Source: Dromiciops gliroides
Lineage: Eukaryota; Chordata; Mammalia; Microbiotheria; Microbiotheriidae
Assembly: GCF_019393635.1 (NCBI RefSeq)
Contig: NC_057866.1
Coordinates: 9,558,223 to 9,622,222, forward strand
Direction: 5' to 3'
DNA length: 64,000 nt
The notes under the pieces are model-generated. The model did not search any database and was not told the origin of the DNA. It saw nothing but the letters and a program-made list of their open reading frames with translations. Shown in pieces: positions 1-59,999 of the stretch. The number at the start of each line of letters is the position of its first letter. Position 1 is the stretch's first letter. The translations under genes were made by a program, and so were the position numbers.

Positions 1-1980
1 TCCAGATACACATTAGACATATAAAGGCCAATCAGAGTTTTTAGATAAATCAAATAGAGGGAGACTCAAAAATGCATTGTAAGGTCTAATGAAAAAGCTG
101 ACAAAACCACTCCCATTTGATTACAGTCTCAGCACCAGTGGGCTCCTTCACAGACCAAGAAGAGCTGAGTTTGAATCTTACACCTCTGGCAGTTATTAGC
201 CAGGGGGCCCTGGGATCTTGGGCTAGTCACTTAACTGTTTTCCTCCTTTACAAAATTCAGATAACATCACCTACCCTTCAGAGACTGTGGTGAGAAACAA
301 CTGAGGTAACTTACGTGTATCTCTTTGCAAACCTGAAACTGCTGTATAAATTTAGCTACTGATTATTAATAATTTCTACAACAAACAAGAAAGAATTATG
401 AGGAAGAAGGGGGATTTACACAACTAGATCCAAAAATATATTCTAAAGTAGGGATCAAAACCATGCATTAGACATTTATATCAAAGTAAACAGATTAGGT
501 CACCTTAAGTGGAACCAAATGCATATACAGTAAACTGAGAATGTCAGTATCCCACAGCAGGAAGTGGCGACCAGATGCACTATTCAACACACAGGAAAAG
601 ACTAAGCAGGATATGGGGAAAATGCCATCAGATATACCTCATACCACATGTCCAGGTGAGTTGCAAATGCATGTCATCTATTTTAAAACCTATCACCCAT
701 AAATATTAGCATTGATAGAACGCTATCATAGTTACAGACAGGAAATGCTTAGCTAGACAGCAAATACAGCAGTTGAAACAAAATAAATGGGTTTCACTAT
801 AAAACTCCGGCATAAAAAATATAAAGATGGAGTAACTCAGGATAAAGGGAAGGTATTAAAGGATACAAACATGCGAGTGTCAAAACACAAATCAACTACA
901 TTTAAGTGTTGAAACTAACGCAAACTGGCAAAGGCCGCCAAACACAATATTCAATGTTGCTTGAACGATTGTAGGTGTTGAGGCAGCTATGGATTGGTAT
1001 GATCAATGAAATATGGCAGGATTAGATACATGAATAGCCATGATACTTCTGAGGCCCTTTAAGTCCAGGAATCTCACTACTGGGCTATCCTTTCAAGGGA
1101 ACAAAAGACTCAGTTGTACAAGGTACATATAGCAGCATTATCTACAACAAAGCCCAGAAACCCATGAATACGATTGGGGAATAGCTAAGCAAATGATAAT
1201 CTGAATGTAATGAAAAGCTGTGACAACATAGTATTTTTTTTTTTGAGGGGCAATGGGGGTTAAGTGACTTGCCCAGGGTCACACAGCTAGTAAGTGTCAA
1301 GTGTCTGAGGCTGGATTTGAACTCAGCCTAGCTGCCCCGACAACATAGTATTTTTTAATGTGGGAAGATATGAAATACTAAAGCAGAACAAAAAAAATCA
1401 TATCGTGATTACACAAACTACAAACACTAAGGGAAAAATAGACAAATGTTCACACGAGGATGGTTGATATGATTTCTTAGAGAAAGAAAATTCATCGCAA
1501 ATAAGAGCTTGATTTTGTTGTTTTTAGTTCTTTAATGTTCTTATATCCTAAAATTACCAACCTCTAAGTGCATTGCAGAGCTAAAACCCAAGTATTCCTT
1601 CCTACTTGAAATCCAAGAAAGGTCAGTGGTGAATAAAATGGTGGATCAGGGAAGGCCATGGGCATGGGGGGCAGGGGCAGTATTTGAGCTTAGTTGGGGA
1701 AGAATTTTATAGCCAGAAAAGGGGGGGGGGGGACTGAGTACTGGAGAGAAGGCTGAAGGGGCAAATCCATGGAGGTCAGACTAGCTCTTTAAATACCAGA
1801 AGGAAATAAACACAAGTGAAATCCCTTCCCTCAGAATCACCTCTGTACACAAAGGGATGAACAACCTCTCCTGGGCATTCAAGTCCACAAACACTTGGCC
1901 TCCCAATGTAGGCAGAGTCTAGTCTAGCACAGGGTGAGATACAAAATTTTAAAAGATGCAGATGGTGGGTGAAATACAAA
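1..1980 (+). repeat. Array unit 1
   Basis: It contains the acacattagac motif near 8, a MIR-like module at 165-330, L1 landmarks T (801), A (1171) and B (1380), then C (1548) and E (1785). The segment near 1866 (cctctcctgggcattcaag) pairs with 6179 in unit 4. It is interrupted by the SINE at 1234. Confidence 0.5.
1234..1338 (-). mobile_element. MAR1/WSINE1-type SINE, internally deleted
   Basis: The reverse complement of the young CORE-SINE (gttaagtgacttgcccaggg, ending cctagctgcccc). It lacks the usual segment between gaactcag and cctagctg. It is flanked by the duplication gacaacatagta (1222-1233 and 1339-1350). Confidence 0.93.
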
Positions 1981-3050
1981 AAAGTTTTAATGGCAATAAC
2001 TATGTAGGTTTAAATTAAGAAATGTGCAAACAAAACCCACTGAGACACTCCCTGCCTACACATTGGTAGAGACTAGAAAAGACAACAACACCCCAACCCT
2101 GCAGAGCTGGGGAGAAATGGGCATGTGGTAATGCTGCTTGGGCAGTCATAAAGTAGCAATAACCTGTGTCTTTTCCAGATTTAAATAAATAATTGTAGTA
2201 ACATTTATTGCTCATGGATAGGTAAAAAGTCAATACAATAAAAAAATGACAATTTGACCCAGATAATTTATGTATTCAATGCCATTCCAGGCAATAACCT
2301 TTTCAGTGCAATATGGCAGCTTACAATGAAGGGATCCCACAACGGGAAATCAAAAGCCTGAGCCATGAGAGACATCAGTGTTGCTGTGTCTACTGACAAA
2401 AATCTCAAAGTGCATGTGTTCAACAATTAAGGAATGGTTCGATAAGTCATGACAACCTGCATGGGATGGAAATGTACCATGAGAAAAGGCAAATGCATAA
2501 TACCATGAAGCCCAAGTGAGGCTGAAAGAATAAATGCAAAAACAATGACACACCAAGAGAAGTCACTGCTAATTAAAGAGAACAATCTACTACTGAAAAT
2601 GAGAAGGGGGTTTTTTTGGTTTGCTTTTTTCTGGTTTAATTTTGTTTATGTTGGAAGTACAAGGTGTGCACCTTACTGTACAGTTGGAGAAGGAAGGGAA
2701 GGCCAATGGAGGCCTCATAATAAATTCCCCATTTTAAATACCAAAAGGCAATGCAAGTACGGTCCCTTCTGAGGAGCCCATGTATACTCTACACTGAGAC
2801 AAGGGAAAGGACAGCCTCTCCTTGTTAGGGGCAGCTCTTGAGCTGAGGGAGGAGAGCAACGGTGTAGGAAAGAGGTTGGAAGTCTCAAGTGCTGAAAGCA
2901 CAGGCTATGGGAGACCCCTAACAGTCCAGTCTGGCTAAGGCTATAAGGGTAGAATGACACCAGAATATGGGGGGCTTTGAACCACATTACAGAGAACTGA
3001 GGGAGGACACAGAGTCAAAGGATGCAGAGCTTCTGAGCATTAACGTAGTT
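1980..3050 (+). repeat. Array unit 2 (shortened)
   Basis: An L1-like start near 2010 is followed by landmark A (2421), E (2730) and F (2955). Landmarks T and C are not recognisable, so this copy is internally reduced or more diverged. Confidence 0.4.
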
Positions 3051-4016
3051 ACTAAAGTGAAACTAAAAGCATATTAGAGTAGCTGACAAATCCAATATCA
3101 TAAAGTGCTGGGAAACAGACGGATTACTGAATTAATGGGAAAACTGGGTAATAGTACTGGGCAAATTGGGCCTAGAAGCACCTCCCACTAGAGATGAACA
3201 TCGCAAATGTACAAGTGACCTAAATTCTTTAAGAACCTTCCTCAAAGAACAAAGAGATTTCATCAGGTGAGAAATACTTATCAATTCAACAAATATTGCA
3301 ATGACAAGATAAATAGGTCTTATTGCAAAAACCTGGCCTAAAAAGAAATATATTGAATGACTAAAAATTATAATATTCATTCACCAAAAAAAAAAAAAGG
3401 TTAAGTTTCAAAGGATGGAAGTATGCAGTTGTCAAAATACAAATCATTAACTCCACAAAAGTATTCAAATTAATGGAAGAAATAAATGCCCATTGGAAAA
3501 GATAGTGGAAGCCAACATTCCGATGCCAGCTAAGCCAGGGGAAAATAGACACATTGAGACACTGCAGGGTGGGGTGGGGGATATGAATTGGAATAATCTT
3601 CTCAATGAAATACCATCTCATACGATGAACTACAACCATACTTTGAGCTTGGTTATTTCCCTACTTGGTTACACTGTAGGACATAAGTGGGGGAAGAGAA
3701 GACCTCAGCAAGTATGGGGTAGGGGAAGCAGAATTAGTTTGAAGGGCAAAACCCTAGAAATCCACAACTGGGAAATGGCTGAACAAACTGTACCATCCAA
3801 ATGTGATGCACAAGAATTATAAATATGTAAGAAATAAAACATGGCAAGACTTGAAGTATTAAAGCAGAGCCAAGAGTATTAACACTGGCCAAAGTTACAT
3901 AAACTCCAAAAAACACACACAAATGGTCAAAAGGGAACAGTTATAGATTATTTAAGACAATAAAAATCCACCATGATTAATTATTCTAGTTTTGTTTTCG
4001 TTCTTTTTAATGCTGT

Positions 4017-4158
4017 GGGGTTTTTTGGTGGGGCAATGAGGGTTAAGTGACTTGTCCAGGGTCAAAGTGTCAAGTGTCTGAGGCCAGATTTGAACCCAGG
4101 TCCTCCTGAATCCAGGCCTGGTGCTGTTTTAGCTACTTTGCCACCTAAGCTGCTCCCT
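4017..4158 (-). mobile_element. MAR1/WSINE1-type SINE, diverged
   Basis: A minus-oriented SINE with a gcaatgagggttaagtgact start and a gccacctaagctgctccc end. It has lost the cacagctagta segment and is more diverged than most copies, so probably older. Confidence 0.88.
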
Positions 4159-4564
4159 TTTTAATCCTAAAATTACCGACCACTCAGTCCACTATACACC
4201 CATCTATCCAGAGCTGCTACTGAGACCCAAGGAAGGTCACTACTGACTGACTACTGGCAAAGTTTAAAAGATGCATATGGAGGGGTAGGGGTGGCAGGGA
4301 GAAAGGATGGGGGCAAAACAGAATAGACATTATCTGAATCACTTTCAACAAATAGAAACCAGGGGCTGCATCAGGCCTGGGGGAATCACTGTCAGCTGGG
4401 ACTGTGAGGGAGAGCTGTGTGGTATCCGAACTGGGCAGGGGGGACACAAGGCACTGAGAAAAAAATATTGAAATCTTGGGGACCTAAGAGTAGCCTGATA
4501 CCAGATTATGGGGCAGGAGGCACTGAACCACAGCCATATTAAAGAAAAACAAGGCTGTATACAC

Positions 4565-4575
4565 AGAGAGAGAGA

Positions 4576-4613
<38 letters not shown>
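4565..4613 (+). repeat. (GA)n(CA)n microsatellite
   Basis: About six GA units are followed by about 19 CA units. On the minus strand, the inferred NEAT1 sense, this reads as a UG repeat. Confidence 0.95.
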
Positions 4614-4615
<2 letters not shown>

Positions 4616-4989
4616 CAGTATATGTAGGAGAACACAGAGCATTTGAGGGCAGTAAATGGACTCTTCTCTTCTTTCCTGGCAACTCTGAGGAGGAAGAGAA
4701 ATAGGACTTCTCTAGGGTCATCCCAAGGGATTTAATTCCAACATCAGTAAACACAGATATTTGCACTGAAAACTCAGGGAAAAAGGGGAAAGTTAGATTA
4801 TAGCCAGTCAGTCCCTTCCATGAACCATGACCATGAGGTGAGAACCAAAGCATTAATAATCCCATAATACAACTAATCAAGACACAGAACTGAGCAACAT
4901 TCCCACAGCACCCTCTGACTAAACACAAAAAGAAAGTGATTGAAAGACCATTTAAACAACAGAATCTATTAAATATTTGGGCATTCTCC

Positions 4990-6550
4990 TAATTCACATG
5001 TTAGAACTTTAGTCAAGTCTACCAGAGTTTGAGAGAAATAATTAAACTGGACAGAGTCAATACACATGGTGACCAAAATAGTTCACTGAGTTTTACTGAT
5101 TCCATAGCAAAATATACTGAGATATTAGATATGTATCTCTACATAACTGATGGTTAAATTAGCCCTACATAACCAAATGTATAACACTATCTGATGATCT
5201 AAATTCTCAAAACATCAGGGTAAGGATACATTATCCAATAGAGAAAATGAGATTGTATAGACCTCAATTTATATTCCAATAAACTGCAAAAGAAATAACC
5301 TAAATATAACTCCCATAAAGAAGTTCTCAAAAACTAGAAATCAATGACTTAATGGAAGTGGTTCAGACTAGTAAGAAAAATGCAAACTAGAAGAACTCAG
5401 CTAACACTTATTGATCCAATTGGCAAAGACCATAAAGACCCATCGCCGGTGGAGCTGTGACAAAAGGGGCACATTATGATGCTTCTGGGGCAGCTACAAA
5501 CGGGTATGATTTTTCTCAGTTCAACATAGGATCATACAGGGAAAAGCTTATACCTTTCATACCACAAAGAGCTATTCCTTAAAGAAATACTGGCCTCACT
5601 AAACTATGCATGGCAGCATGATCTCTAACAAACCTCTGGAAATCCATGTCTAACCATTGGGAAATGGCAGGAGAAGCCATGACAAATGGAACATGATGGA
5701 ATACTCTTCTACCTTAAGAAATGACAATTGTGAAGAAATAAAATATGGGAAGATAATCAGATATCGCAGAACCACAGTAATATTCACATTGACCACAGTT
5801 ATATAAACTACAAATACTAGGGAGGAAACAAATGTGTTTATGTAAATAATGTTTTCTTTTTTACAACATTTTTTTGTTTATATCCCACCATCACCAACAT
5901 GTATTATAGAGCCAAAAACGAAGTTTTGCTTCCTGAGGCCCAAAGGTCACTGCTGAATGAAATGGAAGGGCTGCAAGGAGGAAGTATCTGAGTGAGCTTT
6001 GACAAGTTTGGGGAATTTTAACTCCTGGGGTATGGGGGAGGGTGGAGAAAGGGCAAATCAATGGAAGTCAGAAGTAGGACTTCATCACAAACACCTCTTT
6101 TAAATACCCAAAGGAAATACAAGGTTAATGTTAATCCCCTCAGAGAAGACTGTAGCCACTGGCAAGATGGGATGGCTGACCTCTCCAGAGCAATCAGGTG
6201 CACAGGCACTTGGCATCCCACTATGGTAGCAATGACTGAGTCAGAATATTTACCAGAGACAGATGGGAGTGGGAGAGGGAATGACATAAAACCTATTAAA
6301 AGAAAAACATCACATGAAAAGTATAAGGGAAGAAGTACCAGGTGCTGTGGGGGTTGGAATCCATACAAGGCATAAAGAAAGGATGGAAGTCTCACAGTAT
6401 ATGATAGCAGCTGCCCAACAGTATGGTCTGGCTGGGACAGTAAAGGGAGACCAGATTAGGGGGTGGGAGAAGCTCTGAATCATACTAAAGAGAAGCATGG
6501 GCGTTCACATGTACCTACACACAACGAAAGGAATTTCATTAAAGTAAATG
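4990..6550 (+). repeat. Array unit 4
   Basis: An L1-like stretch (acctaaat near 5300; gctgtgacaaaaggggcaca near 5455) is followed by A (5657), B (5766), C (5880), E (6100) and F (6450). It pairs most clearly with units 1 and 2 through E and F. Confidence 0.5.
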
Positions 6551-7190
6551 GATTATGATCTCATCCCTAGAGAGAAATAGAAAGGAAACAGGATCTTCAC
6601 AGTATTCCAAAAGGAAATAAGATCTTCAAAGTATTCCAAAGGCATGGTAGGTCATCCCATGGGATTCTGAGCATCTGTGGTTGGCTGGGAGCAAAGCAAA
6701 ACCAGATGGATCAACAGTGACTGATAAGCCCTGTTGTCAAGAGACAAAGTGGACTCGTCAAGACAGTTAACTTCAGCAGAAACAAAATTTAAGATAAAAC
6801 CACAAAAATCATCCTTTAAAAAATATTGCTCTCTAACAAATAAAAAGGAAATTGATAGATACCACTCATGACAATTAAAGGCACAGTGCAGCCACCAAGA
6901 CAAAGACACACATTGAGCTTATATAATCACAGCTAAGTCTTTAGAGGTAAACCTTTTTTTAAAGAATTATGGGAAGACATTAAATGACATTAAAGCAGAT
7001 CCAAAAGAATATTCACATGAGCCAGAATTATATAGATTACAAACACCAGAAAAACCCCCAAATATTCAGAAAGGGATAATCTTGGTTCGTTTGCTAAAAA
7101 GAATAAATAAAAACTAAACTCTCCCCATCTGTAGTGTTAACTTTATATTGTATCGCTTAGTACCATGTCCTAAGTTACTTCAAAGACCAG
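6550..7190 (+). repeat. Array unit 5 (fragment)
   Basis: Only landmark B (6985-7080) and flanking sequence are recognisable. It probably represents a truncated copy between units 4 and 6. Confidence 0.35.
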
Positions 7191-8450
7191 GGCAGCTAGG
7201 TGGGTGGGTGGGTGGGTAGAGTCCATAAGAGTTTGAATCCTGCCTCTGGCATTGACTAGCCATGTGACAGCAAGTCACTTGAACCTGTCCAGTTTCCACA
7301 GCCCAGTAATGGGGATAACAATCAATTGAAATAACCTAAGTAAAGCTCTCAGAAAACCTTAAAGGCTAGTCAGAGGCTATTATTATTCATGTTGAGAAAA
7401 GTTAAATTAGGAGGAAAAGAAGAAGGTTATACAATTTGACAAGATCTAAAGCAGTAATAATGAAAACCAACCAGTACTTGATATGAGATCATGTCACCTT
7501 AGGTACAGGCAAATGTACACAAAAGGCAAGAGAAATCCAGTACCCCAAAGCCTTGAGGAAGGCATGTGTCATTCCTTCTCTGGAGAGGACCCCATTAACC
7601 CAAATAAAACAATTATAGGAGAAAAAAAAATGGGGCTGATTGTAAAACCCTGGCATCAAATATAAAGAATGTATAGAAGGGTCACAAGATAAATAAGTAC
7701 CTGATAGCATTCAAATCATTAGAAGAATAGGCGCCCTGGGCCATTGCTGGGGCAGCTCTGAATTGGGATCTCAAATTCTGTAACTTCAGAAAGTCAGTAC
7801 CCGGCTTCGCCCTAAGGATGGAAAGGACCACGAGTAGCACTGTGGGAAGCCACACAGGTGATAGCAGTCAAACCCTGGGAAATGCAGACCGAGCTGTACT
7901 ATCTGAATAATATGGAACGCTGGTATTTGAAAGGAAATGATAAAAACAGTCTAAAAAGCTAACAAACTGAAAGAACATTTGCACCAGCCAAACTACAAAT
8001 ACCTGTATAGGTCAGAAGGGAATGACTGATACTACTTTACCATAAATAATGTGAGTTTGCTTTTGAGATGTTTTTCCCAATGTTTTTGTATCCTAAGATT
8101 ACCAACTACTCAGTACATTATAGGTCTATAACATCGGATTACATTCCACTATTAGTAAGCACCTACTGTTTGCAGGTTCCTGTGCTAAGAACTTGGGGAG
8201 AGAAAGGGAAATAATTAGACTAGAGCCTGCTTCTGCCATCATGAGACAGACATTACACCACAGGGTGAGAACCAAGGTCCTAATAATACCATAAAGAGAA
8301 GAAAACAACCCAAGACACAGGAGTACATACGTAGCAAAGACAGGATACTGAACAACCCATAAAAATCTCTCAACATTTCTGTATCATTCTCTAACAAAAA
8401 ACCTCATAATTCATGACAGAGCATGTAATACAACAGCACACAGTAAAATA
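7190..8450 (+). repeat. Array unit 6
   Basis: A MIR-like module (7215-7345) is followed by T (7640), A (7868), B (7960), C (8088) and G (8261). The G segment matches unit 3 over about 35 bp with few differences. Confidence 0.5.
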
Positions 8451-9640
8451 ATTGGGCCTTCACCTCCCAAGACACACATTAGACCTTGATAGTCCCAAAT
8501 AGGTCATTTGTTACCTTAGTATCTAAAATTTAAGCAACAAATGGGAAGTCAAAGGAGAGGAATAAAGGGAGATAGAGCTAGTACTAGACATAAAGATCAA
8601 TGGACCCAAATCAACAAACGGTAAATAGAACTAAATGCATAAATCAGCTAATAGACTAAAAATACCACAGCACCAGAAGGGATACATTATCCAGGAGAGA
8701 GGGACACCAAAAGCTGTGTGTGATAAAGTGGGATTAGATGAACCTTACAACATATATTTCAATCACAAAAGTGTAAGTGATCTAAATATTCTTTAACAAT
8801 CTCAAAGAATTAACTAATAGAATATGATAGCACAATTCAGAGAGGTAGGAAATTATTAGCTATTTAAAATAAGGCAACTGTGGAAGACAAAAGCGGATTT
8901 GCATAAAAAGGGCATTTTTGATAATACCAGAAATGCAAAGTGTCAAGGATAAAAAGTAAACAAATGGGGGGGCCATGAATTTACACAAAAGATTTAATGT
9001 AAAAGTCTGTCATCCAAAATAAAGATCTGACTTACACATAATTCACCAAGTGACAAGTGGTCAAAAGATATAAACACACATTTCTCAAAAAATGTGAATC
9101 TACATGGAAATGTTCAAATTAGAATTGCAAACAAGAACTCTGATAATACTTCACAATCAAATTGGCAAAAACAACACCCAATACTGGTAAGGCTATGGTA
9201 AAACAGGCACATTATAGGGCTACTTTTCTCAATGCAACATGGATCGTATGATAAAGAGCTACAATACTCCTTGGACCTTTTTTTTTTTTTGGTGGGGCAA
9301 TGAGGGTTAAGTGACTTGCCCAGGGTCACACAGCTGGTGTCTATAAGGTCACATTTGAACTCAGGTCCTCCTGAATCCAGGGCCGGTGCTTTATCCACTG
9401 TGCCACCTAGCCTCCTTGGACCTTTTTACTACAGGGATCCCACTAAGAGCTGTCCTTTGAAGAAATGACCAAGTTGGAGAAGACATGCCTAGTAGCATTA
9501 TCTAGAAAGAAAACCCAGGAAAACAAAGCATCCAGTGGGAAATGGCTAAACAAGCTGTGGAACCTCAATGCGATAAAATACTGTTTTTCTGTCACTGTTT
9601 TGGTGAGACAGTGTCTCAGGATGTAAACAAGGCAGTTGGC
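8450..9640 (+). repeat. Array unit 7
   Basis: The acacattagac motif (about 8470), gtgatctaaat (about 8770), T (9001), a recognisable L1 stretch (caagtggtcaaaagatataa near 9053) and A (9536) are present. It is interrupted by the SINE at 9281. Confidence 0.5.
9281..9411 (-). mobile_element. MAR1/WSINE1-type SINE
   Basis: A minus-oriented copy with a T tail on the plus strand. The duplication ctccttggaccttttt occurs at 9267 and again from 9412. Confidence 0.93.
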
Positions 9641-10560
9641 GGTGCTGTGGAAAAAGGGCACCAAGGCTTGGAGCCTGGCAAACCTAACCAGTTTTGTACC
9701 AGCTGTGTGACCACGCTGGGCAGGTCACTACTTATTTGCAAATTGGGGAACAATAGCACCTGCCTCCTGGGTGTTAGAGTAACTTATCTCATTGATCCTC
9801 AAAGGAAAATACTTTGCATGCAAACCTGATAAATGCTACTATTAGAGTTAAATAAAATTTGTATACAAAATTAAGCAGAAAAAAGGGAGATTAAGTTAGA
9901 TTGCAAAATACAGTCTAATAATCAAAACTACAGAAGGCTAATGAAAGTGGGAAAAGGAGACATGTCTCCAGTGGGCTGTTTGGGAAACCCAGTGTCACAA
10001 AGCAATGAGGAAGTCACGCCCTACTAAACAGACAGGAAAACTGAACGTAGCAGCACATGGAAAAATGAATTAGCCACCCCTCACACCCTATGTCCAAATT
10101 AAGTGCCAGCCTGTAAGTGACCTAAATAATTTTAAATGTCTTACATAGAGTTAGGAAATAAAGGACTGTGGGTATCACAGTTATCCTTACCTATTCATAA
10201 CAACAGAGTAATTATAGAGACCAACCAAAATAGGCTTTATCATAAAAGTCTGTCATCCAAAATATAAAGAATTTATAATAATGCTCATTTTCCAAAAGAT
10301 AAAATAGGCCAAGGATATAAACAAGCAATTTTCAAAATAACATTCCATACCTACATTAAAGCAAACTAATCAGAGTAACATCAACTAGAAACGTTCAGGC
10401 CAAGCCAAGTATAATGGAGTCATATTGTACCAGGAGGTGAGGCTGCCTAAGTATGCAACATGACAAGTACAGGAATGAGAAATGCAAATAAAGCAGAACC
10501 AAGAGAATAAATGCAAACTCTAGTGGAAAAAAAAAACAACCCACCAACGTTCAGGAAGGA
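9640..10560 (+). repeat. Array unit 8
   Basis: A MIR-like module (9665-9800) is followed by gtgacctaaat (about 10115), T (10241) and B (10490). Beyond 10560 the landmarks stop, so this marks the right end of the array. Confidence 0.45.
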
Positions 10561-10829
10561 ATGAGTGTCAGTCCTTATGAAAGTGCATTATAATCTGCCA
10601 ATAATGAAAGCTCGAGTCTGTATTTTTGCAGTCCATGTTATCATTTGAGATGTTCTTAATGACCAGTGAGTTCATTAAGGGAATGACTGTCCAAGGGCTT
10701 ATTCTATTTCTAACCTTAACTAAGTCTGAGGGCAGTGATGGCCCTTCCTCACATGAGGAAGGAGAGTTAGAAAGAAAGTAGGAATAAAGGCTGGATCATC
10801 TTCAAGACCAAAGCCTCTCCTTAGGGTCC

Positions 10830-11215
10830 CTTCCTGCCCTTTGAGCCTTCTTCTGCCTCAGTCCTCAGGGACACTGACCTTCCTCTAGTCCTTCACAAGT
10901 TACTTATCTCCCAGTTCTGGGCATTTTCACTGCCTGTCCCCCTATGCCTAGACCTCTCACACTTCATATGGGAGGCATTCCTCCCCTGGCTTCCTTCTAG
11001 TCACAGCTAAAAACCTCACCTTTGCCAGGTGCTTTTCCTGATGCCTTCTTTGAACTTATCTCCAAGTGATCCTGCATGTACATTGCTGTTTGCACATCCT
11101 CTCCCTAATAGACTGGAAGCTGCTTGAAGGTAAGCTGTCTTTCATCTCTGTATCCCCAGACCTTAGTGCTTTATACATAGTAGGTGCTTACATAAATACT
11201 TGATAACTTGGGGAG
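10830..11215 (+). mobile_element. L2 LINE 3' end fragment
   Basis: An L2-like coding-end and 3' UTR pattern ending actggaagctgcttgaaggt, ctgtatccccagaccttagt and acatagtaggtgcttacata. It is antisense to the inferred NEAT1. Confidence 0.65.
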
Positions 11216-12032
11216 AAAAGCAGGCTATGATGATCCTACAAAAATAATCAATTGATAGAGATATCATTTACAACAGAACACATAGAATACTTGGGAATCA
11301 ATTTGGAGAAATAAACTGAATAGCAATTATCAATACACACAGCTGGGGTCATCCTGGGACAACAAAGATGAAAAAATACCAACATTAGTTCAATGACTTT
11401 GCATTGTACAAAGTCTGTATCCACAGCCTCCCTCACTGAATTAAATAAAAGTTGTGTGACAAATGAAAAAGAAAATTATGGAGGGAAGGGACACTTATTA
11501 AAAAATGAGAAGTAATGGATTATAGCATCTATCCCACTGAATTAGGGAAATTCTCAGGCATTCAACAGTGAAATGACAGGAAATGAATGTATGAGAATAC
11601 TTTTGTGCAAGAAAACAATGATCTACAATAAAAAGGAGACTGGGAGAAAACCTCTTGTAAGACATTCCAAACCAATGTGACACCCACAAAACTCAAATGA
11701 AGGCATTGGCCCTGACTAAACAGAGCTTGGGAGTGAGTGTATGTCAAAGGAAGCCTCCCTTTGAATGCTGTGCTGCTCAATACCTCATAGTTCTCCATCT
11801 CCCAAGAATCTTGGTATTAAGCTGGACTTTTAAAGGACGGGCAGGCACTGAACAGGTGAGAAACAGGAAAGACCAAGACCACAAGTCCACCATTGGTGGG
11901 AAAGGGCACTGCATGCTCCACAGGGAGCTGAGCAGATATGCAAACAGGTAAGGAGCTTCTGGGCAGGGAAATAAGACAGATCCAGGGCGAGTCTGCAGGG
12001 GATACATACCAAGAAACATGTATGCGCTCGAG

Positions 12033-12037
<5 letters not shown>

Positions 12038-12064
<27 letters not shown>
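12038..12064 (+). repeat. (CA)n microsatellite
   Basis: About 13 CA units flanked by tatata and tatacg; a UG repeat in the inferred NEAT1 RNA. Confidence 0.95.
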
Positions 12065-12069
<5 letters not shown>

Positions 12070-14751
12070 GTACACATAAGTTCCACTCAGGTTTTTTTGC
12101 AAGAGTGAGGGGGAGGGTTGGCTTTCATCTGCTTCAATAACCCCCCAAAAATGACAAAAGCGTCAAGAAGGGCAGCTTGGATTGGCCTATCCTGGAGCCA
12201 TTGGAGCCAGACCTCAGCTAATGCCAAGGATCGAGGGGGAGTTGAGAGACCCAATGCCTCCCGTAAGCTCAAGTTGCCTGCTGAAATGTGGGCAATCGTG
12301 ACCTTTCCCTGCATGCATGTGCCGGTCTCTTCAGAGACTTAAGGGAGGGGATGGGCTCCCAGCCCTTAGTGCCTGGGCACTGGGCCTGCAGGACAGGTCC
12401 TACCTTGGCATCCTTCACGGGATGGTGGGAGGTCCCTGAGGAAGGGGTATAAACCCTAAGAAAGATTCAAAGGGAAGCAAGGACATTGTTGAAGGGGTTT
12501 AGAAAAGTCCAATATTCCAGAGGCCGTGTAAATTGGACCTCAACGTCATTAACACAAGGATTTCAACACTGCCAATAAACCAAGAATAGATCAGCTGGCC
12601 TTTCTTCAGATTATTGCAGGGTTAACCCTAAGCACGATAGCAACATATTTGAGACACCACCTTCTAGCCATGAGACTGGCAGAGGCCTGTGGCAGTGGGT
12701 TCATGAGCTGGTGAGAGGTAATGGTCCACAAGGCTGGCTGCTTGAAAGAGGGAGGCACAAAACTGATGAGTGAACTCCATAAACTAACCAAGGGCCACAG
12801 GAAGGCCTTGAAGGATCCCAAGCATTTTACGCAAACACGAAGTTCTACTGAGGTGACAGTGAAGTTTACTTGGAGAAGCGTAATAGCACTACTGTAAAGT
12901 AAGCTCTAAGGTAGTTACGAGGAGTGGAAACACGCCGTATATACAGCCACAGAACAAATGTGGTATAGACACGTTGTGGTATACTAATATTATACCCCAA
13001 TATGGTTATATTAACGATAGAACATTGTTGTATGAAGACAAGTGCTAAATATTACAAATTATCAAACAAGATAGGCACATCAGCAGCCACGCCACAGGCT
13101 GCACCTACCTAGCAGGAAACACCTCTTACCAGCCTAATCCAAGACCCTGGTGTCAGAACCAGGACATTTTAAGCCAGAGAATAATCAGATGTCCAACAGT
13201 GCTCGCTCAGCAGCTGTGGAAGCCCACATTTGGGCTGCTGGAATAAAGAAGCAAAACCCACAAAACAGACATACCGGCTAGCACCTAAAAGCAAGGGTCA
13301 AAAAGAGGAAAAGCTACCTTGTGGGGTCAATGAGGCCAGGGCTAGGGCTAGATCACCCACATATGGCCAGACATGGCTGGTGACTTGAATGTTGCTGCTT
13401 GTTTTTGTCACCAGAGAGGGTTTGGTAATGACTGTGATGGACAAAGGACTTAAGTTAAACAAGGCCACACTTACCTACAGATGCCTCAGCTTTAACTCTC
13501 AGAAACACAGCCTTCCTTTGACCATGAGAGGCTTAGCTACTCTGAGTCATACAATGAACTACACTCACTGCCACATTGACACTATCTCCGAAGAGAACTG
13601 ATGGATGCAGATCTGTCTCCTGCAATATGGCTAATATGCTTTTTGCATGACTTCCTATGTATCAATGGGTATTGTATTTTTTTTGCCTTCTCACTGGGTG
13701 GGGGAATGGAGGGCATCTGAACCTGAAAAGATCATTGTAGTTTCTACCCAACTGCAAGCACTGTGGTTCCTACTCAGCTCTGCACCATCCGGTCATCATA
13801 AAATACACGCTCCCCATAGCTCACAATCAGTAGGAGAGTACAGTATAAAATGCCCTAAGATTGAGGCAATGACGGTAAGCTGAGGGAGGCTAGAAAAAGC
13901 CAGCATGAGATCAGAAAGCAGTAAAGGAGTTGGAGTGACTGACAGGCAGGTACAGCTAGCTAGAACTCACAGACTAACACTAAGGAGCAAACTAGCCAAG
14001 TAAGGCAGCCACGTACTCAAAGCTTCGTGAGACCATGAGAATACAAACCAGACAACAAGGACAGAGAAGGTGCTGTGAAGAAGGAAATTAAGGTTCAGTC
14101 TAGACGGGAATGAGACCTGAATTCGAGTGGTGGGCCAAAGATATAAAGATTCAGAACTGAGGCCCTGAGAGGTAGAGAAACAAAGGAAGGGGACTTATCT
14201 AAGGTCACAGGAGAAAAGTACCTATCAGGAGGCTTAGAGGCCGTCTCATCCCCATCACTGACTACCTCTGCAGAGAGAGCAAGAACGCAAAGTCCTTGTC
14301 CTCCACCCTAGCCAAGAGCCATGGCAAGGCAGGCTGCTCCTTGCATAAGGAAAGTGAATTTGCCTGGAGTCTGGGAAGATGGCAAAGAGTGGCTCTGAAA
14401 GGGGGGGCAACTCCACTTTTAACTGTTCCTTCCTTCCTCAGGGGTCTCTGTATGGGTGGATCAGCAGTCCAGAAGGCTAACGAATGCTTGCTCCCCACAA
14501 GCCTTTCCCAACATCACCAAGCTAAGGACAAGCAAACCTTGGGGAGACTGAATCCCGGAGGGAAGGAAAACAGACCTGCTCAGCACTGACCTGAGATTGT
14601 CTTGTCAATGCATTTTAACAAGCCCAAGGACCCAGAAGGGGGATGTGAAGAATCATGTTTCCTCTACCCCTACCCCTATTCGATTTTATCATGACAAAGG
14701 AACAGACTCTGTGATGACCTTGACCAAGTACAAGACGTTCAAGACTGCCAA

Positions 14752-14897
14752 GGGGCAGCTAGGTGGTGAAGTGGATAAAGCACCAGCCTTGGATTCAGGA
14801 GGACCTGAGTTCAAATCTGGCCTCAGACACTTGACACCTACTAGCTGTGTGACCCTGGGCAAGTCACTTAACCCTCATTGCCCTGCAAAAAAAAGTA
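14752..14897 (+). mobile_element. MAR1/WSINE1-type SINE
   Basis: A plus-oriented copy from ggggcagctaggtgg to cctcattgccctgcaaaaaa. It is the last young SINE before a 12-kb stretch that has none. Confidence 0.93.
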
Positions 14898-16559
14898 AAG
14901 ACCGAAGCCAGTGACCATTTACTATTTGTTCTGACCTTCCCTGGGCTGGGTCTATACAAGTCTCCGAACTGCCTCTCAGCAAGTCAAAGTATTTTGGCTA
15001 ATTTTAAACTTTTCCCCTGTAGCAATTAGTACCCTGCTGGCCAGAGTAGGCACTCAGTCTGTTAATAGAAATATTTTTCCCCCATGGGAAAAACCAACCA
15101 GTACCATTTGGTGTGTTTACACAGTACATTTCAGAAGTGAAGGCAGGAAGGAGGATGGGCCAAGGTGGGCACCCACTAATGTAAACAGGGTGGACAGAAT
15201 CAGGAATACCTTCCTGGAGGATGCACACCCCACCTCGAGGGACACCATTTGTCCTCAGGTAATTTTAGGCCACAGGCCTTTAAGCTCCCAACTTTGCCAT
15301 TTCACATTGTTCCTGAACACGATCACTTTCGTATCAGTTCCCGAATTATTGAAAGGTTTTCCAAATTTCGAGTTTTATCTCAACCCATTCAAAGGGTACA
15401 CACCAATCCTGAGACCATTGTTTAAGTAAAAAGGCAGTTTCCAGATTTCACCAAATCAAAGAATGCAGCACCATAGTGTCATCACATTAAGATCAGGGAC
15501 AAAATAAAATCTACAAAAGTTGGCTCACCTGAGAAGTTCAGTCCGGCTCTAAGGAAGGAAAAGGTTGAATTTAGAGATCACTTACTTGAGTTCTGGGAAC
15601 ATCTGGACTTGCTCCAGGAGATGTGGCAGGCGGTTGAAATTAAATTTAACTCTGACCTCTGATTCTCTGAGGGCACCCTGACCCTTCTTCCACTAGGAAG
15701 ACATCTCTCCCTCCCCCCATACAAATGCTGGTCCACTCTTCAGACTTAAATTCAAACTTTACCTTTGTGTGGGGAAGCCAGGAACCAGGAGCTTCAAAAT
15801 GTTATAAACCATACCTTCCGTTTTAGATGATTTGATAATCTGTACATTTACCATTAAAGCAGTCCCCTTCAATCAAGTTTTTCTAAATGCCCACGTCAGT
15901 GTCCTGAATCACTCCCATCCCAATCTGTAGCATCTTAAAAGGCACAACTGTGTCAGGACATGACAACTGTAGTGCTTTAAGGTGCCGACTGAGAACTGGG
16001 TCTGCCTCTCACCTCCCTCATTGCCCAGCAGGTAGTAGACATCAGAACCACAGACCAGTGCAAAAGAATCTTTGTTTTCCCGAGTGGGTATGGAGTCCAG
16101 GCTCCCCAGGCAAACAAAAAGGCCACCAGACCAAACCAAGATTCGTCAGGGCCCGGAGACAGATGTTGCCTTCCCTACACGGATCCCATTCACAGCCTCT
16201 TGACAATGTGGTAAAACTTGGTACCAAGTGCTTTTACCATCATCTCCCCATTTCTGTACCAGCTCTGGAGCCAAAACATTTACTTCACCAAGAATGCCAC
16301 TGAAAACATTTCCAGAAATGAGGGAGGGGGCATTGTGTTAAGACCCTTATTAGCAAACATTGATTTGGGGAATGTAAGCAAGCAACAAGCACATTAAGAC
16401 ACAAGGCCAGGTTGGGTCAGACCACTCAAAATGTCATTTCACACAATTGCACTAAGTACTATATGCCAGGAACCCCCCAAAGTGGTTTGACGGAACAAAA
16501 CCAAGAACCAAGTTTTCCCCTTCCTTCAAGGAGAATTAGAAAGACATGAGAAATACAAT
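14898..16559. other. Non-coding stretch between NEAT1_1 end and the repeat-bearing body
   Basis: There is no young SINE and no convincing ORF. It would be transcribed only in the long isoform if the NEAT1 model is right. Nothing else is recognised. Confidence 0.45.
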
Positions 16560-16579
16560 AGTAACGAAACTTTCAAATT

Positions 16580-16585
16580 TTTATT
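16580..16585 (-). terminator. NEAT1: Candidate distal poly(A) signal, NEAT1_1
   Basis: This minus-strand AATAAA sits in the context CACAAATAAAAATTTG. Upstream are TGTA motifs near 16622 and a double ATGTATGTAA near 16655-16666. At 3.35 kb from the predicted start it is close to the mouse NEAT1_1 length. Confidence 0.45.
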
Positions 16586-17133
16586 TGTGCTGTTCAAGGA
16601 AGAAAAATGTTAAATCACAAGATACAAAAAGACCAATATGCATACTTGCCTAGTTACATACATTTCTAAGACTAAATTGTCACTAAAAGCTTTCTAGTAT
16701 AAGTTTTGTTTGTATCATGAACCAAGACAAATTCACCTTTAGACTTGTAACTGTTGTTGAAATCAAATATGGCAGAAAAATCAGGGGCTCGCTAAGCTTA
16801 CTCTGGGCCACTGACACATGACCCCTTTAAGGCTGTTTTGGCAAAGGAACATGATACAAAGTCACTCAAGGAAACTTTTATGACTTTCTAAACATTACAA
16901 GTTACCTATGAGTGCTAGCAGTCAAGCAAAACACCTAAGCTCATGAGACAAACAGCAAAACCAACCAACCCACCCAAGACAAAAAAACCCTCCCAACCTG
17001 TTCCTTTGAAAAGTCCAATCTTGTTTCACAAAGTCCCCAGTCTCAATTCACAGTTACATGTTATCCAGTCCAAGTTAGTCCCAACAGCACATCCCTTGTT
17101 CCCCAAGTTCACAGCACAGAGTTCTGGTAGTAT

Positions 17134-17139
17134 TTTATT
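17134..17139 (-). terminator. NEAT1: Candidate proximal poly(A) signal, NEAT1_1
   Basis: This minus-strand AATAAA (plus TTTATT) is preceded within about 45 nt by three TGTA motifs (plus-strand TACA near 17147, 17174 and 17178). This is the arrangement recognised by CFIm, which promotes NEAT1_1 3' processing in human. A further AATAAA at 17623-17628 lacks such a cluster. Confidence 0.4.
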
Positions 17140-19958
17140 GAAATTTTACAATGACCCATTTAAAAAGAAATTGTACATACACAGATCCTGCAGCTGGTCA
17201 ATACCCCCACAGTCATCTAAAAAGATCGTTCTTACAATACTTAAAACCTTAAGATATACCATCCTTACTGTGTTTGCTGTGACCTCATTAAAGCAAACAA
17301 TTCCTTTTCTACAAGGCCAATTCCCTACAGTTTCTAATTGTTTCCAAGGGCAGACTGTCATCTTCCTACATAGGCTTGCTGCCAAAAGGTGAGCTTGCCC
17401 TCGAAATAGCTACAAGTTGACAATGGACTACTCTGGGTCTTCTCCTATTTGCAGTTGCCATTATGTAAAATGCCTAAGACGTTTCCTAAGCTCCCCAAAT
17501 CCTTGGGCAAATAGCTGGCTGGGCCAGGCTCACCCCAAAGGATCTAGGGTATGGGCGTTACCAGCTAAGTTAGTGTTTTAGGCCTAAATTTCCCTTATTG
17601 GCTCCCCCCCCCCCCCCGCCATTTTATTGTGGGGGTCACCAGCCTCCCCCAATCCCCAACCACCCATACCCAGGCTTCCTTCACTCTTCCCCCCACAACC
17701 CACCCTAGAAGCTTCCCCTCCTCCCCCTTGGAGAAACTCCCTTCTTCCCCCCCTTCTAACTCTCCAAATAAAATTAGCTGACTCAGCCAGCATATTCTTG
17801 GTTCAGTTAATGACCCCCCCCATTTAGCGCCCTCTGTAGGTCTTGGAAGACCTGACATAGCCTACAAGTCCTTTCCCCCCCATTTCAGGTTGTTTCCACA
17901 CCACCCCCAGCTTTCCCTCCGTATTTAACCTAAAGTCCCTCCTATGTCTAAATACCCAAACCCCTTCTCGTGATTCCACTCTTCATCTCAGCACAAAACC
18001 AACCAGCCATTCTAGTAATGGCCGCGGGGGTGGGTCCATAATTTCAGTTAAGTTCCGGTTTTACAAGAGTTTGTGGCATCGACCAAATCTTACAGCAAGT
18101 CTTCTTGCACCAAACAGGGCATTAACTTAATCGAAGAAGCCTCAAATTTGGAAGGTAGCACCTGACATCAAACCCCAAACCCCACCCACCCGAAACTCTT
18201 TAAGAGAGGTCAGCAGAGGGACTGCTGGCCTCACTGCCCAACGGGGCAAGAGCTCCAAGGCGGCAGCACGTCCGCAGCAGATACACAGGGATGTGACCTG
18301 GCTTCACTTTTCCTGAGGTTGCTGCTCACTGACAGCTGCGGACGAATTCCCAACACCCCCATCTGAACATTTTAAAAGGCCAGCAACCTTAAGGGCAGAA
18401 CTTCCTGAACGGGCTCTGCTCAACTTCCTTTACAAGGTGGGAGGCATCAGCTACGATGGCTCGCTCGGAAGACAAGGGAACAAGCTTTCTCGTTGGCTCT
18501 CTCCTCTCCCTGCTGCACTGCTGCTTGCTAGGGACTCACTTTGGGCAAACTGCTCCATTCTGATGGTGCCATTAGATGGTCCGGATGAACACTATAATCA
18601 ATCATGTTCCAAAAGGCATTTTACTCGACTGCAAAACCCACGTGGAAATTTGCTTGCTTAGAAACCCCCCAGCCCCAAAGGTCAGCCAAAGTCACGTCAC
18701 AAGCGTTACAGGAGGCCCCACCCTTTTCCATCTTTTTTGCAACACCCTGCTTCCTTGAAGCCTCATTCCCGTATTAGGATGGGGTGGGGGGGGCCTTAAA
18801 CCTTAGGATACTGCCCCACCCCCAAGGGCTTAGAGGGCACTCCCCTATGGCTGCCAAGTCAGTTTGGCTTGTAGCCAATCCTGACGCTACATCGAGCCGA
18901 TACGCAAAGGTCGTGATCACGACCACTCCCCTTTTTACTTACGCCTCACCAGAACCAGAACATTTAAAACCTGAACTTATCGACTGAAAACCTCGTGAAA
19001 TAAAGGAAGGAGAAGCAGAGGTAGAGGGAGCAGACGTCACACCTAAAGTTAGCTTCCAACCTACAAGGAAAGAAAGGTTCCCCACGCAGAATCCTGCCAT
19101 CTGGAAGATAAAAGGTGTCAAATTGCCCGCCCCGCCCCGCCCCTGCAACTTACGAACACGGCAAGCCCTGCAGCGCCACCTAGCCGGCCAGGAGAGGAAG
19201 TGCTCACAACCCTACTTCGTGGAGCTGTCCCTGGACCACCCGGGGCCCCGCCAGCATCCACTGAAGCCCACCCTGCTGGTCGACACCATTACATACCACC
19301 CTGAGCCTCCAGGAGCTAAGGCCTTTTCCACAACATCTGTGCTCAGCACCTCCTGGGGCTTTCCCAGTTTCTCAACCCCAGGATGGTCCACAAACCCTTT
19401 GCCTGGAAAAAAAAGGGACTGCTAGTTTGACACGTTCGAGCTCAGTCCCCCACCCCGACATCACTCCGCCCCATCCTCGCTTCTCCCCCAGAGCCTTCTA
19501 TTCTAGAAAGTCAACTGCTCCCTTCCGGTCTGCATTAACAGCGTTAAGAAGCCGCCGGTGGGCATCGAGTTTTACCCCAATCCATAATTCTTAGCACCAA
19601 CTCCTCCCTCTATACAAAGAAGGGCACCCCCCGCCTCCCTGAACCAGAATCTCAGGGAGTGCCCTTTTGGAAAACTTTCTCTTTCCTCCTGCGCCAGGAG
19701 GCTCCTCACCCTGACATCTCACCTCGCTAAACTTTCCTCCACCCTCCCCCTCTTGTCTTCTTTCCCTAGCCCACTCAGCTCCCTCCAGCTTCCTATTAAG
19801 TCCCCCTTTCTCCCCGAAATCCTTTCTTTCTCTGACCTGGCCATCCCTACCACCCCCCCCCCACCCGACTCCCTCTGACGTCTAGCTACTCTACGTGCTA
19901 CAAAAGCTACACTCGCTCCCCTCCTGCTCTATGCCTTCCCACAGCCAGGAAGAGCAAT

Positions 19959-19965
19959 TTATATA
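19959..19965 (-). promoter_or_regulatory. NEAT1: TATA box of inferred NEAT1 promoter
   Basis: The minus strand reads CCTATATAAAT, a good TATA match, just beside a CpG-rich region and oriented toward the long non-coding interval. It predicts initiation near 19930-19940. A CRE-like TGACGTTC lies about 25 bp upstream of it. Confidence 0.5.
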
Positions 19966-23700: not shown

Positions 23701-24537
23701 GAAAGAATCTTCTCCAAATGGCCCGCCCTGGGATTCTGTCCATGGCCATAGTGCCTCTGAGAGGGATTTTGAGTAGCCTGACATAGTGAGCCAAGGGTTA
23801 GCCATTGCCTAGTTCCCTACAAAGGACCACCTTGTGTGTGAAGCTCCAGGTCTTTAGCCCACCCGTGCTAAAAGCCAGAGGCTCAACATCTTTTCTCAAT
23901 TCAGGTACCAGCCTCCTGTGCAGTCAGCAGACCAGAGACTGCACAAGAACAGGCCAGGCTGGGTCATACCTGAAGAGACTAAAGAAGGCCCTTGGGGTCT
24001 CCTTGGTTTATTTCCTCTCTTATTCTAAGGGTTTCAGTATGAGCCCCACAACTGTCTCCAAGAGAAGGAGTAGGGTTTGTGGGGAAAGGAGGCAGGGTTG
24101 CTGTTATGGAAAAGTGAAGTGAGGAGGGGGTGACTAGCAGAGGAGGAAGGAGAGCCCCTCCCCCCATCCCAGAACCCCCTGGGGCAGCCCAAGGAGAGGG
24201 GCAGGAAAATTCCCAGCTGCCTTTCAGGGAAATAATGCCCAATTACACAAGAGAAAATATTGGATTGTTCTGGCTCTGTCCTAGCAACTGGGCCATAAAC
24301 CAGAGATTCTTGGCAGTGAGAAAGAGCCCACAGGAACAGAAGTGGTCGTCGCTTATGGCAACAAAAAAAGGTGGAAATATATGTGCCCAAACAGAAGAGA
24401 AACAGGAGGAAACGGCTTTGGACGCCAGGGGCCCGATGGGCCATTTCTTTGTCTAGCCATTGCCCAGCACTGCCTAGCACAGGGCAGGCACCTAACACAC
24501 GAGTTTTAATCCACTGCTGGGTGGATGAAGGAGAGGA
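20721..24537. other. Upstream flank of the inferred NEAT1 promoter
   Basis: GC-rich and free of young SINEs, with an old SINE at 21547 and a MIR-like piece near 22060-22175. CCAAT motifs lie at 21207 (plus) and about 21272 (minus). ORFs of 100-200 codons on both strands lack family resemblance. Confidence 0.5.
21547..21776 (-). mobile_element. Older CORE-SINE (MON1/THER1-like), diverged
   Basis: The reverse complement of the old marsupial type: a cttggcaaagacatgaatga region, ctccagctcatttgacagat, gaggaaactgaggcag, then acttgtccaggttcacacag and gtttgaactcaggtcttcct. It is clearly more diverged than the young SINEs. Confidence 0.7.
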
Positions 24538-25150
24538 GAAGAGGGGGAGAGACAGAGAGGGACAGAAAGAGACAAAGACAGGAAAATAGAGACACAGAAA
24601 GAGACAGAGACAGGGAGAGAGAGCCAGAGAGGGAGGGAGACAGACACAGAAAGGGACAAAGAAAGACAGGGAAAGAGACAAATACAGGAAGACAGGAATA
24701 GAGAACAGAGACACAGAAAAAGAGAAGGACAGAGAGATGGAGAGACAGGAAAGCAGAGGGACACAGGAAGAGACAAAAAACAGGGAGAGACAGAGGGAGA
24801 GAGAGAAATAGAGACACAGGGAGGGACAGAAAGGAACAAAAAGAGACAAAGAGAGACAGAGAAAGGGACAGGAAAACAGACACAGGAAGAAACAGAAAGA
24901 GACAGAGAGAGACGGAGAGGGAGACAGACTCAGGGAAGAAGAGAAAGACAAAGAGGGAAAGAGAGGAACATAGAAAGACAGGGAAGGGGAGAGAGAACTG
25001 AAAGAGACAGGGAAACAGACACAAAGAGGGACAGAGAGACAGGGAGAGAACAGAGACAGCAAAAGACAAAAACAGAGAGGGAGACAGATGCAGAGAGGGA
25101 CAGAGAGAAGAGACAGGGAGAGAAAAAAGACTGGAAGAAAGGGGGAGGGG
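24538..25150 (+). repeat. Purine-rich (AGAGACAG-type) simple repeat, about 610 bp
   Basis: Imperfect repetition of agagacag, gggacagaaagag and related 6-14-mers. Almost every pyrimidine is a single C or T, so the strand asymmetry is extreme. Long open frames on the minus strand (Ser/Leu/Phe-rich) are by-products. Confidence 0.9.
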
Positions 25151-32200: not shown

Positions 32201-32366
32201 TTTTTTGTTTGTTTATTTGTTTTGTTTTTTGTTTAGGCAATTGGGGTTAAGTGACTTGCCCAGGGTCACACAGCTAGTAAGTGTTAAGTGTCTGAGGCCG
32301 GATTTGAACTCAGGTCCTCCTGACTCCAGGGCGGGTGCTCTATCCACTGTGCCACCTAGCTGCCCC
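32201..32366 (-). mobile_element. SINE 2 of a nested triplet
   Basis: A minus-oriented copy of the other tail class (aggcaattggggttaag) with a long T-rich tail. Both sides carry gctgtgtattctttttt. Confidence 0.93.
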
Positions 32367-32376
32367 GCTGTGTATT

Positions 32377-32530
32377 CTTTTTTTTTTTTTTTTTTGCGGG
32401 GCAATGGGGGTTAAGTGACTTGCCCAGGGTCACACAGCTGGTAAGTGTCAAGCGTCTGAGGCCGGATTTGAACTCAGGTACTCCTGAATCCAGGGCCGGT
32501 GCTTTATCCACTGCACCACCTAGCTGTGTC
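32377..32530 (-). mobile_element. SINE 3 of a nested triplet, ending in a 25-nt C run
   Basis: A minus-oriented copy (gcggggcaatgggggttaag). Its 5' head, on the right, is followed by 25 C residues (32530-32554) and then gtgtattctt, the shared target sequence. Confidence 0.92.
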
Positions 32531-59551: not shown

Positions 59552-59999
59552 CTGTAACACAGACCGGTGTCAAGCTGCTGCAGTCCTGGCCTCTTAGAGA
59601 GAAGCCAACTCTCCCCACTCCAGCCCCAAGGGGGCCTGCAGGGCAGGGAGGGTCTCTGAGCTCTTCTGTCAGCCATCCTTTGCCCAGCACGCCCAGGGAA
59701 ATGGGCCCTATCTCTGTGGGATCCTAGGGACTGGGACCCAGACCACAAGAGCAGAATCAGATGTGCCAAGATCTTCCAGGGGCCAGCACGCTGTGTGTGA
59801 TGGCAGACCCACAGAGGTGTAATGGGAAGAGCACTGGACAAAGGTCTGCTTCCAATCACGGCCACAGTCACTTATTAGCGGGGTGACAATACTCAGGACT
59901 CCAGAGATGGCAGAGGGACACGTGAAGGGCCCAGGCCCTGGAGGGCAGCATGGGAGCCTGACCGAGTGTCCTCCCTGTCCACCAGACCAGCCGGCCTGC

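Follow-up and report, generated by a model that had tools for sequence, protein, structure and literature searches.

Where do the redundant modules in the middle of the long NEAT1 RNA come from? Neat1 is held to build paraspeckles, a kind of nuclear body, by means of these modules, and no common repeat sequence is known for them (PMC6316617). A locus of the marsupial Dromiciops gliroides gives this question a concrete form. The window analysed, meaning the whole stretch of 64,000 nucleotides at positions 9,558,223 to 9,622,222 of contig NC_057866.1 (forward strand), carries NEAT1 on its minus strand. According to an original prediction made from the letters alone, the first 10,560 positions would be the body of the long isoform NEAT1_2, built from about eight tandem copies of a unit containing part of an L1 (LINE-1) element. 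The analysis confirmed that window positions 110-10640 are an array of eight degenerate copies, arranged head to tail, of a module of about 1-2 kb; the support is good for seven of them and partial for one (copy V).

Detection and extent of the array

Self-comparison of positions 1-11000 by BLAST gave 28 off-diagonal matches at E<1e-3, all on the same strand, three of which pair one young short interspersed element (SINE) with another. After masking of the young SINEs and the CA repeat, 23 same-strand and no inverted matches remained, and at E-values up to 1 the numbers were 37 and none. Ten dinucleotide shuffles of the array stretch, used as a control, produced no self-matches. Five other stretches of the window of about 11 kb also match themselves, with counts that are not numerically comparable to those of the array, and all five include inverted matches.

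The copy boundaries were set by hand, to within tens of bases, and the eight copies were aligned after removal of the young SINEs and the CA repeat. Because a profile made from all copies is circular, the copies were held out one by one. The leave-one-out profiles recognised all eight held-out copies, on the plus strand and in order, with best E-values between 6e-8 (copy V) and 9e-54 (copy III), against none of 40 shuffled copies at E<0.1. This bears out the predicted number of about eight copies, recurring every 1-2 kb. Together the eight copies have 10,082 bases, and 6918 of these (about 69%) are covered by the held-out matches. The copies also keep their register, as six out of six three-copy triangles close, at 0, 0, -3, 0, 0 and 0 bp. 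Successive copies are spaced by -3 to 78 bp in the (circular) all-copy profile, as expected for head-to-tail copies with little or no spacer.

Array similarity begins at about 110-115 and ends at about 10640, so that the predicted extent of 1-10560 was nearly right. No unit similarity was found just beyond 10640; to the left, the array may extend past the edge of the window. The mean identity of the global alignment of the eight copies is 51%, compared with 40-41% for four alignments of shuffled copies. As this is only moderately above the shuffled values, identities are given from local matches, for which they range from 57 to 82% (E<1e-3, SINE pairs aside). The distances between copies are near saturation, and no ages are claimed for the copies.

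Organization of the copies

All copies lie on the plus strand. Copy I (110-1990) consists of a MIR-like SINE, block A, the L1 part and blocks C-E (held-out E 3e-14 and 2e-30), and copy II (1991-3075) of a reduced 5' part, the L1 tail and blocks D-F (1e-19 and 6e-4). Copy III (3076-4640) comprises block A, the L1 part and blocks C-F, and was recognised over 1338 of 1367 bp (9e-54). The same series follows a second SINE-like piece in copy IV (4641-6515; 3e-41). Copy V (6516-7150) is short, and its L1 tail at about 6965-7093 is the only part that was independently recognised (6e-8 over 129 bp). Copy VI (7151-8122) carries the MIR-like SINE, block A, the L1 part and the start of block C (2e-6 and 3e-22), copy VII (8123-9600) the second SINE-like piece, block A and the L1 part (3e-23), and copy VIII (9601-10640) the MIR-like SINE, block A and the L1 part (3e-16 and 2e-5). 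At 6581-6640 copy V also contains a 29-bp tandem duplication (2.1 copies, 90%), a small later event.

The original prediction named self-comparison as its own check, and counted as refutation either a lack of off-diagonal lines through non-L1 motifs or independent full L1 insertions. A generous L1 span set by hand, the SINEs and the CA repeat were masked, leaving 5301 bases, and 13 same-strand and no inverted matches persisted at E<0.05, so the first of these grounds for refutation fails. Five of the 13 are below 1e-3, the matches of block A are among those that persist, and every copy except V is involved. Blocks C-D downstream of the ORF2 part of copy I (1541-1905) are homologous to 5878-6220 in copy IV, with 61% identity over 376 columns and E 4e-14 when L1 and SINEs are masked. 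Block F, found at the ends of copies, has its core in copy II at 2944-2986 (E 0.007, L1 and SINEs masked), with homologues at 4485-4532 in copy III and at about 6440-6510 in copy IV; the similarity of II to III has a z-score of 11.3, that of II to IV is weaker (z 4.8). Sequence continuing across the copy junctions is weakly indicated, since junction III-IV against IV-V gave one 17-bp match, with 6 of 500 shuffles as high. By eye, no clear poly(A) tails or target-site duplications were seen at the copy junctions, where decay would hide them.

Identity of the L1 part

One frame of the copy consensus matches residues 1125-1150 of human LINE-1 ORF2p (E 0.036), and all four matches at E<10 are LINE-1. 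The best six-frame score in the window (68) belongs to a putative ORF2 remnant in copy VII (9040-9090, plus strand; about residues 1066-1082 of human ORF2p); for the ORF2p stretch ending at residue 1083, six shuffled stretches score at most 50 over the whole window. In register with it, copy VIII has a second putative remnant (10302-10337, plus strand; about residues 1071-1082). Its score of 40 is by itself within the shuffled range and is backed by the match of 8993-9090 to 10236-10337. For residues 1125-1150 the top window score (55) belongs to 11875-11934 on the minus strand, which is not part of the array. The array matches to this stretch, at 3521-3565 (III), 7727-7765 (VI) and 9173-9241 (VII), fall at corresponding places of the unit with scores of 38-41, within the 38-51 of six shuffled stretches.

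No L1 domain was found by Pfam in the translations of the array. A search with the translation of copy IV found nothing, and another consensus frame matched solely an unrelated ankyrin-repeat chain. Three frames of the consensus of block A, which precedes the L1 part, gave no matches in the PDB, including none to ORF2p, a weak negative given the decay. The L1 identity of this part of the module is thus modestly supported by sequence similarity, and blocks C-F could be what is left of the 3' untranslated region of an old L1. Of the predicted L1-containing composite unit, the homology outside L1 and the duplication stand, while the L1 identity is the modest part, with an E-value of about 0.04 against human ORF2p.

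SINE markers and order of duplications

A profile built from 23 SINEs located at 11-64 kb was run on positions 1-12000, where it detected three young SINEs, at 1231-1339 (copy I), 4015-4160 (copy III) and 9277-9418 (copy VII), as well as just three old SINEs, all oriented the other way. The latter, on the minus strand relative to the young-SINE profile, are located at 155-252 in copy I (E 1.6e-6), 7229-7299 in copy VI (1.9e-5) and 9638-9729 in copy VIII (2.4e-6), and are presumably CORE-SINE/MIR-like. They occupy one position of the unit. Their right flanks are common to I and VI (z 10.1, none of 200 shuffles as high), I and VIII (z 4.3, 1 of 200) and VI and VIII (z 3.1, 4 of 200). On the left, I and VI have no flank in common (z -0.7); the left flank of copy I, at positions 1-150 of the window, weakly resembles block A of copies IV and VII (10 and 7 of 200 shuffles as high).

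Copies IV and VII have in common the second SINE-like piece with its flank (plus strand, 4716-4887 and 8123-8320), which is 64% identical over 199 columns (E 3e-9); the flank beyond it gives z 12.3, with no shuffle out of 200 as high. Part of the piece in copy VII, 8146-8209, resembles 46875-46826 and 47978-47922. The old SINEs at fixed unit positions, with right flanks in common, agree with the prediction that the duplicated segment sometimes already bore a MIR-like SINE. The young SINEs stand at differing unit positions, each unique to its copy, and were therefore inserted later.

In a tree of the copies, IV and VII are grouped with a support of 98 and VI and VIII with 92. Without the SINE columns the values are 93 and 79, so that even then the tree accords with the distribution of the SINEs, and with block A alone 100 and 82. 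Trees of the L1 part only and of blocks C-F only did not recover both pairs; other branches have supports of 12-62. Copy I, though it bears the MIR-like SINE, was not resolved with VI and VIII. As neither supported pair consists of adjacent copies, the duplications probably involved blocks of several units.

An empty site for the SINE of copy I was also sought by joining its flanks. The joined sequence matched copy VII with z 6.9 in an alignment that stops short of the join, so that no empty site was shown, and the comparison with copy IV was not significant (20 of 200 shuffles). The young SINE at 9277-9418 and the old SINE of the same family at 9638-9729 are oppositely oriented and about 220 bp apart, a possible hairpin; inverted Alus have been discussed as hairpin formers in human NEAT1.

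Position of the array in NEAT1

The three NEAT1 regions of Rfam lie in order on the minus strand of the window. Region 1 (RF01955) is found at 19288-19425 with 53.1 bits (gathering threshold 50), region 2 (RF01956) at 18948-19078 with 35.8 bits, below the threshold of 60 (E 5e-4), and region 3 (RF01957) at 18394-18594 with 36.9 bits, below the threshold of 55 (E 0.025). A TATA promoter box, TATATAAA, was read from the sequence at 19958-19965 (minus strand), and from it the NEAT1 start is placed near 19930. A scan of 15-18.5 kb for AATAAA on the NEAT1 strand gave a probable polyA signal of the short isoform at 16580-16585, about +3350, and a probable second one at 17134-17139 (+2796), 554 bp from the first. 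A third AATAAA, at 17623 (+2307), has no explanation, the other two matching the published marsupial pattern. According to PMC12941219, short isoforms of NEAT1 measure 3415 +/- 219 bp, and the opossum has two polyA signals separated by about 500 bp, which were also found in all other marsupials surveyed. The locus thus has the marks of a NEAT1 ortholog: regions 1-3 in order, a TATA promoter and a short isoform of about 3.4 kb with paired polyA signals. At the other end of the window, an open reading frame at 59250-59690 (minus strand) shows a weak match to the FERM F1 lobe, below the Pfam cut-off and ranked behind an unrelated family, and no PDB match; it may be the start of FRMD8, a gene that would be expected beside NEAT1.

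With the start near 19930, the array lies at about +9.3 to +19.8 kb of NEAT1. The main assembly domain of human NEAT1 is located at 8-16.6 kb (PMC9465675), and the array is accordingly found at the place of the middle domain of NEAT1_2, as had been predicted. It likely sits inside this isoform. With NEAT1 read from the minus strand, a U-rich block of about 10 kb, made of repeated modules containing L1 antisense sequence, would occupy the middle of the long isoform. On the NEAT1 strand the array has 37.5% U and 18.1% G.

Proposed origin and function

Duplication of a composite module is very likely the origin of the array. The starting unit would have been a locus-specific module of about 1-2 kb, with an L1 ORF2 3' fragment on the plus strand plus other sequence. 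It would have been multiplied head to tail inside NEAT1 in repeated rounds of tandem and multi-unit duplication. Copies I, VI and VIII would owe the MIR-like SINE, and copies IV and VII the second SINE-like piece, to insertions into their lineages that preceded the last of these rounds. Thereafter the copies would have decayed and received the three young SINEs.

The middle domain of NEAT1 is treated in PMC9465675 as a core-forming block, and shortening it shrinks paraspeckles. In human cells, antisense L1 sequences recruit many RNA-binding proteins multivalently (PMC6108849). The array might most likely act by its length and by loose multivalency, through many weakly binding U-rich stretches along the core-forming block and no single conserved motif. 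That a tandem-duplicated module is transcribed in NEAT1_2 and acts in this way is the reading we prefer, and we would give it an even chance.

Several results weigh against it, and a few mild ones in its favour. The 3' end of NEAT1, with its triple helix and tRNA-like element, was not reported by Rfam in the window and would lie to the left of it. Thirteen motifs were counted on three sequences, together with four groups of hexamers and a ranking of all hexamers, and the z-scores and shuffle values are uncorrected for the number of tests. PTB-type motifs are denser in the array than in the 5' part (10.7 versus 5.8 per kb), as its composition predicts (z 0.7), and the MATR3 motif AUCUU is without enrichment in the array (z -1.2). 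G-quadruplex motifs, which are proposed NONO sites, number 4 in the array and 30 in the 5' part (10700-19930), both near the value expected from composition. UG repeats have been reported as TDP-43 sites in NEAT1; two CA repeats on the plus strand, at 4577-4613 inside copy III and at 12038-12064, are UG repeats on the NEAT1 strand. The TDP-43-type motif UGUGU is mildly raised in the array (z 2.2), and this excess is no larger than that in the 5' part (z 2.1). In favour of the reading, GU hexamers occur 17 times against 9.3 expected, with 10 of 300 shuffles as high. The core hexamers named by PMC12941219, UCUGUG and CUGUGU, are not clearly enriched in the array (14 occurrences where 10.1 are expected, a count reached by 53 of 300 shuffles); CUGUGU alone was equalled by 22 of 300 shuffles, and UCCC (z 2.4) and CUGC (z 2.1) show other mild excesses. 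No claim of function is attached to these mild excesses. Folding of two conserved blocks brought out no convincing conserved RNA structure; one gave no pairs and the other five weak pairs at -0.6 kcal/mol, and in three of these pairs one of the four sequences has both partners altered. A further point against the reading is that older L1s lose their multivalent sites (PMC6108849).

The same results suit a tandem array inside NEAT1_2 that has no function and is a tolerated, neutrally decaying expansion in the middle of a gene permissive to transposons. The copies are strongly decayed, the motif and structure signals are absent or mild, and NEAT1 has regions permissive to transposon integration (PMC12941219). 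Set against this are the location of the array, which corresponds to that of the assembly domain, and the great gene length conserved across mammals, neither of which separates function from tolerance. We regard such a neutral expansion as a serious possibility, somewhat short of even. A role by length and multivalency and a neutral expansion carry comparable weight, and the evidence does not separate them.

The original prediction suggested that such an expansion could be the source of the redundancy in marsupials, which stays a conjecture. A further-reaching version of the functional reading would have the eight modules serve as assembly domain for paraspeckles in this lineage, each of them a redundant core-forming unit, the redundancy having arisen when one segment with its transposons was duplicated. 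Should the first duplications be older than the marsupial-placental split, which the strong decay would permit, the dissimilar human modules could even be further-eroded relics of the same array. We consider this unlikely, though worth stating.

A different explanation would place the array past the 3' end of NEAT1, in intergenic DNA and outside the RNA. Transcription of 1-10640 is itself a presumption, and the published intergenic distance between NEAT1 and MALAT1 averages 36.8 kb (PMC12941219); both points speak for such a location. On the other side, no match to mascRNA or menRNA was found in the window at the gathering threshold, nor in 1-22000 at E-values up to 1, and the long isoform, whose tRNA-like end was not reported in the window, presumably leaves it at the left edge. 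No published ortholog of NEAT1 is shorter than 14.5 kb, and the average for three marsupial orders is 30.7 kb (PMC12941219); with such lengths, +9.3 to +19.8 kb should fall mostly inside the gene. An intergenic array is therefore improbable. These three orders, Microbiotheria, Diprotodontia and Dasyuromorphia, have the longest NEAT1 genes (mean 30.7 kb against 21.1 kb overall; PMC12941219), and the array, at 10.5 kb, is similar in length to their excess of about 9.5 kb over the mammalian mean, on which it may bear.

Specificity of the module to the locus

The copies could also descend from a composite interspersed element, made of a SINE, an L1 tail and a 3' part, that was inserted here repeatedly. 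The possible derivation of blocks C-F from an L1 3' untranslated region would fit such an element. At E<1e-3, every match of the array to 11-64 kb involves a young SINE, a CA repeat or one short SINE-like piece, and with L1, SINEs and CA repeats masked the array has no match in these other 53 kb of the window. Outside the SINE columns, the all-copy profile of the unit found nothing in 11-64 kb better than E 0.5. Of the 52 matches that the eight leave-one-out profiles gave in this region at E<0.1, 48 overlap SINEs. The remaining four (E 0.014-0.075, 42-122 bp, all on the minus strand) would be in favour of an interspersed element and are taken as chance or stray fragments. The strongest, at 38005-38126 (minus strand, E 0.014), corresponds to the L1 part of the unit and is perhaps a stray L1 fragment. 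Against repeated insertion stand the copies that nearly abut in a single orientation, the supported sister pairs IV/VII and VI/VIII that are not neighbours, and the masked comparison without a match. Taken together, this makes a composite element very improbable.

Separate insertions of L1 elements, every one creating a target duplication of its own, could explain the ORF2 3' piece in the aligned part of all eight copies (with protein similarity in some only), but they are excluded in practice, as the least credible account, by the one orientation of all eight, the 13 matches surviving L1 and SINE masking, the old SINEs at one unit position with common right flanks, and the matches to 11-64 kb almost solely through SINEs; the alternative named by the original prediction is thereby contradicted.

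Among other repeats of the window, two long degenerate stretches of GA/CAGA-rich low complexity were seen at 24531-25123 and 36192-36343, and two young SINEs stand head to tail at 32216-32526 with a period of 164 bp.

Comparison with known systems

The original prediction knew of no description of this array, and none was found among the matches listed in the searchable literature; work on opossum NEAT1 may say more. The main text of PMC12941219, a survey of 545 mammals, is without the words "tandem" or "duplicat-", and its accessible parts report transposon hot spots and self-complementary regions in NEAT1. In the main text of PMC10869381, as far as accessible, neither "tandem" nor "marsupial" occurs.

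The array is comparable with the landing sites formed by antisense L1s (PMC6108849), as the RNA strand of NEAT1 is rich in U and runs antisense to the L1 part. It differs from them in that its PTB and MATR3 counts match composition only; many of the protein-binding sites are gone from older L1s (PMC6108849).

With the repeat domains of Xist, Rsx and FIRRE (PMC6316617) it has in common a long nuclear RNA with a domain of repeated units, proposed in those RNAs to multiply protein-binding sites. The RRD of FIRRE is about 60% conserved between primates and mouse, yet binds the same protein (PMC6316617). Unlike in these three RNAs, the units of the array are 1-2 kb long, transposon-bearing and strongly decayed, and the array is known from its sequence alone.

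Another counterpart is the middle (assembly) domain of human NEAT1_2 at 8-16.6 kb, with which the array agrees in the gene it belongs to, in strand and in how far it lies from the start. Deletions delimited the human domain and sequence the array, and the boundaries of the array's units give experimenters places at which single modules can be deleted or transplanted. Redundant modules have been reported in the middle of Neat1, and the known modules are described without a common repeat (PMC6316617). Found at the corresponding place in a different lineage, the decayed array makes the duplication of a unit a concrete candidate mechanism for this redundancy.

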